A stretch of DNA of 64,000 nt. It comes from Aquila chrysaetos chrysaetos (Eukaryota > Chordata > Aves > Accipitriformes > Accipitridae). This document shows positions 32,201 through 41,200 of this stretch, in pieces (the first letter of the stretch is position 1; every line of letters begins with the position of its first letter). The notes beneath the pieces were generated by a model. It did not search any database. It worked only from the letters and a program-made list of their open reading frames with translations, and was not told the DNA's origin. Position numbers and translations under genes: made by a program. Location: positions 21,085,363-21,149,362 of the forward strand of contig NC_044005.1 in assembly GCF_900496995.4 (NCBI RefSeq). The letters are read 5' to 3'.

Positions 32201-35200
32201 AGTATCTGTATATAAAATTTAATACTGGCTGTGGGGGAACCATTCTGCATATGTTGTTATGGAGTGCATTTTGAGTGTCTACGGTCCTGTCTCCTTGGTA
32301 CTTACCTTTCAACATGGAAGTTCTGCAACCTTTCTAGTCATTTTGTTCTTCTGAACTATCTCTATGGTTAGGCAGTTTTTCCAAATATCTATCTAGCTAG
32401 AAAGCTTTAAATTGCAAGGACCTTACTGTAAGTAGTTTTACCATTATGAATTTTTCTGGTGATAAACTTTGTGCTTCAAAGGCTTCAAGCAGTTGAACAG
32501 AGTTTCATTGCTACTTTTCTTCTTAGTAAGTTTTATGTCTTTTAGATCTAGGCTTTCATTGTCACCAACACTTGGACCTCGCTTTGTGTCCTAATTTGAC
32601 TACACGTCAAAATAGACATGCTCACTGTTCTCCTTCACATTGCTGGAGGGCTATTACAAGAAATTATTTAAGGATTCATGCTTACTGATCTTCAAATGGT
32701 TGGAAAAATCTTTCTTATGTATATATGCATGCATGCATACATGCAACACATAGTACATCATTCCTTTATATCCAAGATTGAAAAAAGGATTTTAGACTGT
32801 GGACTGATGTCCTTTTTCAGATGCAACTGTATGTGGAAGCTGCTGAAAATGCTTTTTTAATTTTTTTTTTTTTTAAATATGAGTGTTCAGATAAGACATG
32901 CTTGTATAATACCAGCCCCTGGTTCATTCTTAGCTGTTAGAGCTGGGTATATTTTGCCTGGGTGTATTTTGTCTAAGAAGTTCCACAGGCAGAGGTGAGA
33001 GGTTTATCATCTTTGACAGTGAAATAGTGAGGAGAAGCTGGAAAGACAGAACAGGAATTCTCTTCTGCTAGATGTTTGAATTCAAAGTTGACTGCCCTCA
33101 GTTTTGTTGTAAATATGCAATTCCAGTTTTATGCATTATGTTCTTGAAAATTAGCGAGACATTATGAGAGCCAAGTAGTGGGTAAACTTAAATATCAGAC
33201 ACAACATCAAGGATCTTTTTTTTGTTCAGTGAAATAGCCTGTGAAAAGAATGCTAGGTGCTCTTCACTTGAAAAGGACAGATGTTTGGCAAAGATTTCTG
33301 TTCCTATAGAGACCTGCATGGTTACAAGGTCTTTTCCATTTTAAAACTTCAATCCCTGTTTTCTCAATATATTTCTTTTGAGATCAGGTTAACTTTCACT
33401 TCTGATCACTTGTGGAGGTATGTCCACTTCCACATTCCAGCTAGTCATCATTTTCAGATCAACTTAACGTGACTGACTTTACATATGAGTAATGGATTTA
33501 TCATAATGAATTACATGCATGCAGTGGATGGAGTCACTAAGTTGAGAGTGTCCGAGTTGAGTACCTGTATGCACATGGGGTGTCAAAAGTAATCCAAGTG
33601 ATGAGAAGCCCATTTTTGTGTAATGGCTATCTGAATGTCATGGATAACCCTTCAGTATTAAAAATACTTATCATTAACTTTGTCTTAGTTGTCATTATGG
33701 CTCTCCTTTGAGAAGTGAGAACTTTTCTTATCCATCTTGGTCTGAAGACAAATGCTTCCACCAACTCCTACAGTTCTTAAATTATTTTCAGTCTTAAATC
33801 TTCATGTTGTCTGGTTGATGAAGGCTGTCCTTTAAGTGGTGTTATCTGTTACTAAGGTACTTCGACAATCTTTGGACAGACTGGGTCTAAGGAACATTGG
33901 CATCATCGCTGCGGATGGAGATTGGAACATTTCAAAGGAGATGATAGTTGATCCCTATCTTAATGATGCTGTTGAGGTAGTTGGGTAAGTGTGGGAGAAG
34001 GGAGGAGTTTTACACATTGCTTATTGTTTCATTTCTGTAAGTAAGTCTTCATTTTGAGAAGTCATATATTCTTATTTCATACTTCCTAGCCATTCCCATT
34101 TTTTTCATCATCATGTACAGTGATAACTGATTACTCTTTCCTGTCTTCCTCTCTTCTTTCAGTTTAGTACATGTGTAAGGTAGCCTTATTGCCCTTCCAT
34201 CATTCCTTTCAAGTGTTAGTTAGGAGCTCTGTTTTAGGCTTCTTATCTTAGCATTAGCGAATGACAGGACACTTATAGCTAATCTGCACGTGCATCTTCA
34301 AAGTCAGAAAAACCTTAGGACTGAATTCTTGGTCTGCAGTCAGTTCTAACTTCAGGTGAACTTGAACTTTCACACTGGAACTTACCACCCTGGGACTTCC
34401 CATGATTGCAGCATTCCCTGTTACATATGCTTTGCTTGATATTTTTCTGGTCATGTTCTAAAGCTAGGAGTTTCTATTTGTTCCTTATATCTGATAACAG
34501 ATAGTGTTAGAAGCGCATACACAGATAGTAAAGTAGGAGTAAAAACAAGCATTGAAAGTTTGTTTTTAAACTAATACAACCTATCTCAATTTTAGCAGCT
34601 AGGAATGCCCACTGTTGTAGTTCTGGCAAGTGGCAACTTGATTGTTTGCCTGCACTCTTGCTCCATAATACGCTTTCTTACTACCTTGCTGCTATCAACT
34701 GACTTGGTAATTATTCTGCTGCCCTTGCTTTCTTTATAATCTCTGATTTCTCAAAACTATAAATAGTTTTAAAAATTATAGCACATTCCCGGTGGAAATG
34801 ACCTATATGTGTATAAATTGTTCGCTTGTGTTACATCTGTTAACTTGCTTACCTCTGTTGTTAACCTTACTCTGATAAGAACGTGCTTGTGGTCACGAGT
34901 GTACCATTTATCCTCATCTATATGTAAGGGGGTGTGATATGCTTATAATTGTTTAAACTAATGCATGGTTCAAAGGTTATAGCAAGTCAGTTAAGAAAGC
35001 AGGTTTTTTTATAAAATCCCTGCTTATGTGTTGAACTTGTAAACACTGATCACCTGGAAGTGGCTGCCTGAGAAATACCAATTACAATGCCAGCATTGAG
35101 TAACTCATTTGGTTTAAAAACATATAACTTTCTTAAGTTAGGCAAGATTTGCACCTCAGCAAGTTATAGCACATTAGGAAATGTTTCAGTTATGATTTCC

Positions 35201-38200: not shown

Positions 38201-41200
38201 AAGTCAAGTTATATGATATCCACTGATTTCACCTTGCCCACACAGGTAGTCATCTTGTTGTAGAAAGCAACCATGTTTATCAGGCATGATTTGCCCTTAG
38301 TAAATCCATGCTGCCATTCCCAGTCATTCTCCTATCCTTCTTGTGCTTGGAAATGGCTTCCAGGAAGACTTGCTCTGTAACCTTCCTGGGGACTGAGGCT
38401 AGATTGATGGGCCTGTAGTTTCTCAGATCCTCCTTGAAGACAGGCATTAAAACTGTTTTTCTCTAGTCATCAGGGACCTCTCCTAATCACTAAATACTTT
38501 AGCCTTTGTGTGTATGTTAAGTCTGCAAACCAAATACTGCCTTATTCTAATGCAAGATGTAACGGGAAAATACGATGCAGAAGCAATACTACATTGTAGT
38601 ACTACATTGTCTTCAGGCAAAGTTCTTAAGACTTTGGGGCAGGAAATCTTGAGGTTTCAGGCTACTGTCAGACTGCACATAAGCTAGTTCAGATTCTGAT
38701 CGGTGGAAAAAAAAAAAAGTCTTGCAGCACTGTTTGCTGCAGATAGTGTTCTGTTAGAGAAGATTATATATGGCAGAAATATACAGAGTGATTTGAAGGT
38801 AGGTAGGCATTTGATGTTATTTGAATTTACAAGTACAGCAAATGCTCTTTAGGGGACCTCTGGACTTCAAGAAACTACATTGTTAGACTCGGTCTTACGT
38901 GACATTTTAGGTTTGTTTCATTGACTTTGAAGGCCTTAAAATGTCTCTAGGGACTACTACGCAGTTGAGTAATAAGGTGTGTATGTGTCTGGGGTTTCTC
39001 TTGTTTCTTGTGTTGGTTGTGTTTAGGAAGAGCTGATCTCATTTGTGTTGCTTCTCTGTTAAACTGAAATAGTTGATTAGCAGGGAGAATAGGGGGAATC
39101 ACCTCCTTTTCTTAATTAAATGTTTACTGTGCTTTCACAAGGTTTGTAAGTTATAATTCAGTTGTCCTTGCCCTGTGTGTCCTCATTGTGGCCTAACCCT
39201 CAACATTGTAACATCTAAGTGGCTGGCTTGCTAATAGAGTATCTTGCACGAAATATTATATGCTTTGTCTTTAACTTTATCTGCAGTTTTGTGTGTGTAA
39301 GAAAATAAGAACCAAATGTTTTTAATTTTTCCTTTTGTCATGTACTTTGGGGTTTGGCATGGTAGAGAAAGAAGGTGTCCTTCTTTGAAGGTACTTTGTA
39401 CTTGATAATCTATTACATTTTTTTTTGGTGTAACAGTTGTTGTCCAAGTTGTAAAAACAAGAACTGGAACATGATTTGGTTTTGGAATAAGTTCAAATAG
39501 TGCTGAAGAAGATGCTTCCTTTCCCAATATAATTTTTTGGCAATTTAAAAAACATTTTTTTTTATTGTCCCTTCTCTCTGTTCTTTGCTCTCTTTTTTTT
39601 TTTTTTTTTTTTTTTTTTCCAAAGCTGTTGAGATACACGTTGGATAAGCACGGTCTGCAGCAGGTGAGGATCATAGCCAGCGATAGACTGTGGGAGCCCA
39701 TTTCCTTTGTCTTGCTGCTTGACTCTGAGCTCCACGGAGTGGTCGATGTGATTGGGTAGGGGGTTCTCTCTGTTTTTCTTTCTTGGTGGTTTGTTCATAG
39801 TTTGTCTTCATCTTGCTTATTTGTAACTAGCACAGCCAAAGCTTTACCTCTCTATACTCTTACCTGCAATGAAAGGATTGATACTATAATCTTTCCTATG
39901 AACCCACATCAAATCACATGGGCTGTTGTCCTAGTGACAGCTTCAACCCTTTAATTGAATCATGAATCTCCTATCATGTGGAAGATTCCTATGGGCTGTT
40001 GTTGCACTTTTGATGAATTGGAGTTTTTTTGGACAGCCCTGTTTATTCTGAGGGTTGTTTTGGTTCCTGTATTTGGTATGCAAAAAGTGCTTTATCTTTA
40101 CAGCTTTGTATACAGCCTTGTATTACTGACTTCCACTGGTCTGTTACAGAAATGGGTGTGATCCAGAAATGAATTTTAGTTACAATAATGTCTTAATTCT
40201 TAGTTCCCATTTTGTTTTGATGGGAAGGTTGTGTTTGGAAAGCATGCAACCAGCTGACTTGTTTTTCTAGTTCTGGATTTCATCATATGATGCTAATATT
40301 TTGCAAAACTAGTAGACTAAATCTGAGATTGGTTACTGACTTGTCTGCTGAATGGATACGTGTGTAAGACTTGCTTATTAACTTTTCTTTTTACAGTAGC
40401 TCTAAATTTTAATTATTAGGTTCCATAAACTTGCCTGACCCAATCACATGCTTCAAATATGGCTGTTCCTTGCTTCAACTTGACTGTTTTTCATTCATCT
40501 TTATATATCTGACCCATAGGAGGTGTAGAAATGAAGGCTTTCCTTCCAAATGCAACAGACAGTCAGTGCCCCCCCTTCCCCCAGTCAATCCCTCCCCCCA
40601 TTCTGAACAACAAAAAGTACCCTGATGGTTTTTTTGCAAGTGGAGTCTTGGATCTTGTGCTGATCAACAAGTGAAAGCAATTGAAGTTACTCTGACCGGA
40701 TGAAAATCCATTGTAATTACCATGATCCCAATGTAGTGAGCATGCTTCCTTTCTGTTTTTTTGGCAGCTACAAGTATGCACCCAGAGTCAGTTCCTGAAG
40801 CTCAACTGTTTTTACACTATCTCAGTAAGCTGTAGTTGCTTAACTCTTTTCAAGTGTAAATTTTATGTGCCTACTCTGATTCAATATTAACAGGGAGATG
40901 AAATACTCTCTTGTGTAATGGATGATCAGTTGGCTGCTGGACATTTAGTAGTGCACATCTCATCATGTAGCTTTTAAAAAAATTGTTGGCTTTCTTTTTT
41001 ATTTGAAACTATTAAAAGTATTTCAGATAGCCAGGATTTTACATGGATGTACAGAAAATCAATTTTGGACTTGGTAACATAATTTGTGATCTGTGAGGTG
41101 TCTCATCAGGCAACCTGGATGGGAGACTAGTTAAAGCTGCTGCTTTGTTTCATTTTGCACTATTTGCGTCTAGGCTTCATCTGCAAGATGTTGTAATGGC

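Follow-up and report, generated by a model that had tools for sequence, protein, structure and literature searches.

The window, by which we mean the whole analysed stretch of 64,000 nucleotides of Aquila chrysaetos chrysaetos DNA, contains on its forward strand the coding span of GALC (20105–60636), a much-studied lysosomal disease gene whose enzyme fails in Krabbe disease. The gene model comprises 17 exons plus an alternative exon 7a and is open throughout. Exon 6 (28652–28690) encodes 13 residues, carries the first catalytic glutamate in the motif WNE and ends in phase 0, and exon 8 (47144–47299), which reads GAHYPG and farther on SSED, carries the catalytic nucleophile. Between them, on the same strand, lie two copies of exon 7: exon 7a (33857–33984; 128 nt), with 42 residues, a split codon (G) and the donor GTAAGT, and exon 7b (39625–39755; 131 nt), with 43 residues, a split codon (G) and the donor GTAGGG. 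Both are bordered by AG and GT, enter in phase 0 and leave two bases over at the end, and either joins exon 8 in frame. When the 16 other exons were spliced with either copy, the frame stayed open between the ATG at 20105 and the stop at 60636, with a length of 673 amino acids for 7a and 674 for 7b; in the spliced model, including both copies leads to a stop at codon 243, and including neither to a stop at codon 214. The first-pass annotation had claimed two intact, splice-flanked exons at these positions, 18 of 43 residues identical, each fitting between the exons with WNE and SSED, and this is exactly what we found.

The 18 identities in 43 residues are reached with a single gap, and the alignment has a BLOSUM62 score of 72, whereas 5000 shuffles averaged 20 and never exceeded 44. 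We also scanned the whole window for open AG...GT segments of the same phase and size, of which there were 981 (485 on the forward and 496 on the reverse strand); the three that scored best against 7b were 7b itself, part of 7b, and 7a, and the next reached only 31. The scan and the shuffles rule out a chance resemblance, and exons 7a and 7b are homologous intact copies, far beyond chance. They are neighbours of much the same length and share one phase, as tandem duplicated exons do. The Pfam families Glyco_hydro_59, 59M and 59_C matched both a bird protein with 7a and one with 7b, and the two catalytic glutamates sit in exons 6 and 8, which the isoforms share, so that each isoform has the barrel, central and lectin domains and both glutamates of a GH59 enzyme. 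An Rfam scan of the window gave no matches.

Splice sites and choice between the copies

The splice signals of the two copies are opposed in strength. The acceptor of 7a (33833–33856, ending TAAG) is only 0.55 pyrimidine over 20 bases, the lowest value among the gene's 17 acceptors, whereas its donor matches the consensus at seven of nine bases over the whole site. The acceptor of 7b is the most pyrimidine-rich of the 17, with 20 of 20 pyrimidines in the scored tract and a preceding run of 26 T (39593–39618), whereas its donor matches at five of nine bases, the lowest among the 16 donors scored, a set that leaves the exon 1 donor outside. Choice between the copies would rest on these opposed strengths, and wrong products, with both copies or neither, would decay through the frame shift. 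Steric exclusion between splice sites is ruled out by the 5.6 kb intron that separates the copies, and the introns are GT-AG, with no sign of a U12-type incompatibility. From these signals and frames we predict mutually exclusive use, with one copy of exon 7 per mRNA.

Such an arrangement has precedents. PMC9741552 gives a set of 236 events of mutually exclusive tandem duplicated exons in human, and U2AF1 and OGDH are further vertebrate cases. The GALC pair resembles the known vertebrate cases in that the exons are homologous neighbours of near-equal length and the same phase, are ancient, and yield isoforms identical elsewhere. A term search of the main text found no mention of GALC in PMC9741552 or in PMC5740500, a human survey, and catalogues based on human data would be expected to miss a pair that is seemingly absent from mammals. 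In the open-licence PMC literature we found no paper describing the GALC pair. Exon gain and loss in GALC are reported in section 13 of PMC12008523; that section does not describe the pair, and a term search of the main text for 'splic' and 'isoform' returned nothing.

Occurrence, conservation and ancestry

A protein search with 7a alone returned 55 matches from 64 candidates, whose E-values over 45 residues lay between 2e-20 and 6e-9; 52 of them were named, all as vertebrate GALC, and three had no name. Exon 7a was found in birds, geckos, amphibians, bony fish, sharks and a chimaera, and none of the 55 matches came from a mammal, nor any from a turtle, crocodile or snake. Many were titled isoform X2 or X3, titles that databases assign automatically; the Hoplias X2 protein is of the 7a type, implying an unseen X1. 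Among the matches listed, the GALC proteins that we classed comprised 146 with 7a, 29 with 7b and nine with both (n = 184), counts that do not measure prevalence because the proteins come mostly from 7a queries. The nine two-copy models always had 7a followed by 7b, two of the 146 7a rows (P0008 and P0018) had part of 7b behind 7a, and these models look like predictions for which no transcripts were used.

The X1 and X2 proteins of pink salmon and masu salmon are identical outside exon 7, the pairs P0048/P0061 and P0047/P0065 showing no difference before WNE or after HYPGT. Five 7a proteins of 659–667 amino acids come from contigs of only 2.0–2.7 kb, most of which the reading frame fills, as in spliced RNA. 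In two eagles all 43 residues of 7a are the same as in the window, and over the rest of the residues compared the identity is 98.4 and 98.8%; frameshifts of 7a in closely related birds, named by the first-pass annotation as a sign against the pair, were sought at the protein level, and in these two close relatives the exon is intact. Three birds, two of them eagles and one a guineafowl, have a listed 7a model (X3 or 3-T3) that lacks exon 8 and hence the nucleophile, and given these exon-skipping models some use of 7a may make inactive protein. Ostariophysan fish had 7a in all 26 named models among the matches listed, and the mouse GALC crystal-structure sequence has an exon 7 stretch of the 7b type. 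Mammals may thus have lost 7a and ostariophysans 7b, each group seemingly retaining one copy, as far as can be judged from protein rows that are 90% clusters and able to hide an isoform.

Mean identity of the window's 7a was 0.69 both to nine ray-finned rows and to 19 distant rows that included sharks, a skate and a chimaera, and that of its 7b to nine teleost rows was 0.71. Because these means are so close, we regard 7a and 7b as being under similar constraint. The first-pass annotation had read the low identity between the copies, with hallmark residues retained, as an argument for long-term selection on both; low identity between copies is by itself no evidence, and selection on both is instead supported by their conservation across species, at the protein level and in separate clades. 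Trees built on 42 and 44 columns, from a sample with no shark 7b sequence, placed 7a, 7b and bacterial sequences each in one clade, with SH-aLRT values of 91, 83 and 88, respectively, in the first tree and support of 80/80, 98/84 and 97/95 in the second. They rule out 7a as a recent copy, and they suggest that the duplication likely occurred before jawed vertebrates radiated. The proposal of an ancient duplication kept as alternative versions is therefore supported by the clades, the salmon pairs, the similar conservation and the intact eagle 7a.

The GH59 proteins of bacteria, organisms not known to have saposins, are encoded without introns and offer a view of the direction of change. Of 43 bacterial segments equivalent to exon 7, 40 were nearer to bird 7a and three to bird 7b; when mouse 7b and chimaera 7a were used instead, nine of the 43 were closer to 7b. 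The motif [AC][AC]D occurred in 35 of the 43 and W.[IVL][AVG] in 41, and W[EQ]P[IA] was missing from all except one. Among the vertebrate rows, AADG was present in 141 of 146 with 7a and in none of 29 with 7b, and ASD.LW[EQ]P in all 29 with 7b and in one of 146 with 7a. Judged from the bacteria, 40 of whose 43 segments resemble bird 7a more, 7b looks like the derived form and 7a like the ancestral type.

Consequences for the enzyme and alternative explanations

Exon 7 swaps a helix-strand-loop-helix-strand piece around strand 5 of the barrel. The loop of 7b reads LWEP; that of 7a is shorter, is without EP, and has the bacterial-like form AAD..W.I. Counted in an alignment with the mouse structure sequence, E215 falls on the LWEP of 7b, and E215K is a Krabbe mutation adjoining the saposin A site, according to PMC5764952. 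Predicted structures have the same elements in both isoforms, and the helix that follows strand 5 begins at residue 222 with 7a and at 224 with 7b; model quality is poor over the whole protein (mean pLDDT 68.6 and 59.1) and fair in exon 7 (block means 78–92 over residues 201–240). None of the 12 pocket residues listed for GALC in PMC13187500 lies in exon 7, all being in shared exons by a numbering hand-counted from the mouse structure alignment (E182/E258). As far as that list extends, a direct change of pocket residues is ruled out and a direct effect on specificity is weakened, and because those residues are shared, both isoforms would be active glycosidases. The choice of exon 7 would most likely tune substrate or lipid handling, or docking of saposin A, the helper protein of the enzyme, with 7b as the vertebrate-derived form; we consider such tuning of substrate or saposin docking somewhat probable.

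We know of only one type of exon 7 in mouse and human GALC. These GH59 enzymes (3zr5, 4ccc, 5nxb) share with the eagle the gene, the domains and the catalytic glutamates, and the solved mouse exon 7 is of the 7b type. Both of the distinct GALC sequences in the PDB are described as mouse, so no 7a enzyme has been solved. Zebrafish GALCa and GALCb are both active, according to a review (PMC10002607). If they are of the 7a type, as the ostariophysan models above are, then 7a alone serves a myelinating animal, and the split is not simply one of 7b for myelin.

Taken together, it is highly probable that bird GALC has a conserved pair of alternative exons 7. Against this reading, 7a could be the remnant of an exon in decay, or a cryptic exon that annotation software has picked up, as its pyrimidine-poor acceptor might suggest, yet it is open, is conserved to distant vertebrates much as 7b is, is unchanged in the eagles and occurs on the short contigs that resemble spliced RNA, which makes this explanation extremely improbable. 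It is also very unlikely that the main outcome of 7a use is a product that is inactive or decays, for instance when exon 8 is skipped as well: the bird proteins P0006, P0007 and P0010 do join 7a directly to exon 9, in frame and without the nucleophile, but exon 8 is skipped in only three of 55 aligned proteins, the other 7a rows continue into it with few exceptions, and ostariophysans show no version other than 7a.

A more serious alternative, though still an unlikely one, is that 7a and 7b are truly used as alternatives yet do the same work, and that the gene keeps both for regulation, such as frame-shift decay that sets the dose of GALC. It would fit the position of the listed pocket residues outside exon 7 (PMC13187500) and the early stops of the wrong combinations, as well as the finding that ostariophysan models were seen only with 7a and mouse with 7b, so that either alone may suffice. 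However, each copy has kept its own signature (AADG versus ASD.LW[EQ]P), which would be needless for pure control of dose. Our own account of the pair's history is offered tentatively, as one possibility: at the outset vertebrates would have made two GALC enzymes from a single gene, one with the ancestral-type 7a and one with 7b, whose LWEP loop would have become adapted to saposin A. Both would have persisted in most lineages, mammals dropping 7a and ostariophysans, including zebrafish, dropping 7b. If this history is true, Krabbe work in human and in zebrafish studies different enzymes, and neither shows the role of the switch between 7a and 7b.

The pair amounts to a second version of part of the GALC catalytic barrel, apparently older than jawed vertebrates, and we found it described in no paper, perhaps because mouse and human seem to lack 7a. 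It calls for caution, because the version of GALC in fish models may not be the one in mammals, and with its two natural states it provides a test of what is done by the loop next to the saposin A site, in the region of a Krabbe mutation.

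Two versions of GALC exon 7

The window holds a complete GALC gene on the + strand, with exons found by similarity and borders set by splice sites and frame, and its coding span runs from the ATG at 20105 in exon 1 to the stop at 60636. Between exons 6 and 8 lie two homologous versions of exon 7 on the same strand, 7a (33857-33984, 128 nt, 42 residues) and 7b (39625-39755, 131 nt, 43 residues), each with its last codon completed by a G from exon 8. The first-pass annotation had claimed a splice-flanked pair with 18 of 43 residues identical, and this was borne out by the frame model and the alignment, in which the pair scored 72 vs 31 for the best unrelated splice-flanked open segment (981 candidates, both strands). 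On the - strand, 10197-11204 contains an intact single-exon ORF of 335 aa that resembles a seven-helix receptor; it is presumably GPR65-like, GPR65 being a known GALC neighbour.

With one exon 7 copy the frame encodes 673 or 674 residues. Frame translation with both copies stops shortly after it enters 7b, at codon 243, and with neither copy it stops at codon 214; read after 7a, 7b starts GGC TGT TGA (39625-39633), placing a stop within three codons of the join. This frame shift is the likely safeguard against double use. Splice-site crowding does not apply as a cause of exclusion, because the copies are 5.6 kb apart. Pyrimidine content is lowest at the 7a acceptor (0.55) and highest at the 7b acceptor (1.0, with 26 T in a row) among 17 GALC acceptors. 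Scored over the whole donor site by a plain count of matches to the 9-base consensus, 7a (GTAAGT) reaches 7 and 7b (GTAGGG) 5, the lowest of 16 donors scored with exon 1 left out. Such opposed strengths would permit regulated choice.

Automatic isoforms X1 and X2 of pink and masu salmon are the same before WNE, the catalytic-glutamate motif of exon 6, and after HYPGT in exon 8, and differ in exon 7 alone. Five 7a proteins with a source tagged 'lgn' (by nearest named row, P0034 frog-like, P0179 killifish-like, P0053 catfish-like, P0055 loach-like and P0156 carp-like) have frames of 659-667 codons that occupy most of their 2.0-2.7 kb contigs, which are therefore probably mRNA assemblies. The database isoforms P0006, P0007 and P0010 (two eagles and a guineafowl; X3/3-T3) join 7a to exon 9 in frame without exon 8, and hence without the catalytic nucleophile; the junction counterpart in the window is 33984-49379.

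Distribution, constraint and age

The 7a stretch alone matched 55 proteins out of 64 candidates. Fifty-two carry names, all vertebrate GALC, from birds, two geckos, frogs, sharks, a skate, a chimaera and bony fish; the other three lie closest to rows from frog, catfish and loach. Two wider searches (best 120 of 5558; best 120 of 868) raised the total to 184 proteins among the matches listed, classed by similarity to reference stretches as 146 with 7a, 29 with 7b and nine with both, 7a first, P0008 and P0018, which have part of 7b behind 7a, being entered as 7a. The excess of 7a arises because the queries were mostly 7a: two consisted of 7a stretches or proteins, and in the third, an alignment, six of the seven rows were 7a. 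Exon 7a also occurs in lungfish, coelacanth, sturgeon, paddlefish, bowfin and caecilians.

All 26 named ostariophysan models among the matches listed, from carps, a loach, catfishes, characins, knifefishes and milkfish, have 7a (whole in 23, first half only in three from common carp) and none has 7b; zebrafish is not among these rows. Cyprinid 7b rows would probably appear among the matches listed, catfish and characin ones might not, and the name of Hoplias X2 implies an X1 outside the rows seen. No mammal was found among the 55 matches to 7a, and mouse GALC of solved structure is of the 7b type. Loss of 7b in ostariophysans and of 7a in mammals is only suggestive, because each row stands for a 90% cluster and the 55 also lack turtles, crocodiles and snakes.

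Mean identity of the window to ray-finned fish is 0.69 in 7a and 0.71 in 7b, and the two are thus under similar constraint. Window 7a is 0.69 identical to 19 distant rows, sharks among them, and is kept at 43 of 43 residues in two eagles (98.4 and 98.8% identity elsewhere), the closest to the window among 11 proteins compared. Exon 12 (52721-52810) has the lowest mean identity to distant vertebrates of all exons (0.37-0.41); exon 1 stands at 0.43-0.44, on fewer rows than other exons.

In a tree built from 182 stretches of exon 7, 7a, 7b and bacterial GH59 were each split off by one branch (SH-aLRT 91, 83 and 88), as in a careful tree of 60 (80/80, 98/84 and 97/95, bootstrap not fully settled), on few columns and with moderate support. 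The 7a side holds sharks, and the 7b side, whose sequences include none from sharks, holds birds, a gecko, bony fish and mouse, so the split likely predates the radiation of jawed vertebrates. The best 80 of 456 bacterial GH59 loci, many titled Verrucomicrobia, Acidobacteria or Bacteroidetes, are 34-42% identical to GALC over almost full length. With bird copies as references, 40 of 43 bacterial segments scored nearer to 7a than to 7b; with chimaera 7a and mouse 7b, 33 were nearer to the former and nine to the latter, with one equal. ASD.LW[EQ]P occurs in 29 of 29 7b rows and its counterpart W[EQ]P[IA] in one of 43 bacteria. Judged against this bacterial outgroup alone, 7b looks like the derived copy.

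Likely effect and meaning of the exchange

AlphaFold2 models of bird proteins P0004 (7a; 41 of 43 exon 7 residues as in the window) and P0058 (7b) were poor as a whole, though exon 7 was fair (block means 78-92). In each, a helix leads into strand 5, followed by a loop, a second helix and strand 6; the second helix begins at 222 in 7a vs 224 in 7b. A PDB search with the 7a model had mouse GALC as its top match. The twelve pocket residues given in PMC13187500 all fall outside exon 7, and 7a (IIAAD) retains the Asp of the barrel salt bridge Lys99-Asp227 that the paper also describes. The Krabbe mutation E215K, according to the GALC-saposin A structure paper (PMC5764952), traffics correctly, retains activity and adjoins the site of the helper protein saposin A. 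E215 is the E of LWEP in 7b (counted on the mouse chain from E182 to E258), and EP is missing from 7a. With the pocket elsewhere and this difference beside the saposin A site, choosing 7a would likely alter the edge of the face that docks substrate and saposin in an otherwise competent enzyme.

We found no description of the pair in the open-licence PMC literature searched; automatic annotation already contains both isoforms. The GALC pair adds another example to the alternative tandem duplicated exons. It is unusual in the gene concerned, in its place next to the saposin site, in its depth and in an apparently reciprocal loss, which would hide the pair from work on human, mouse and perhaps zebrafish.
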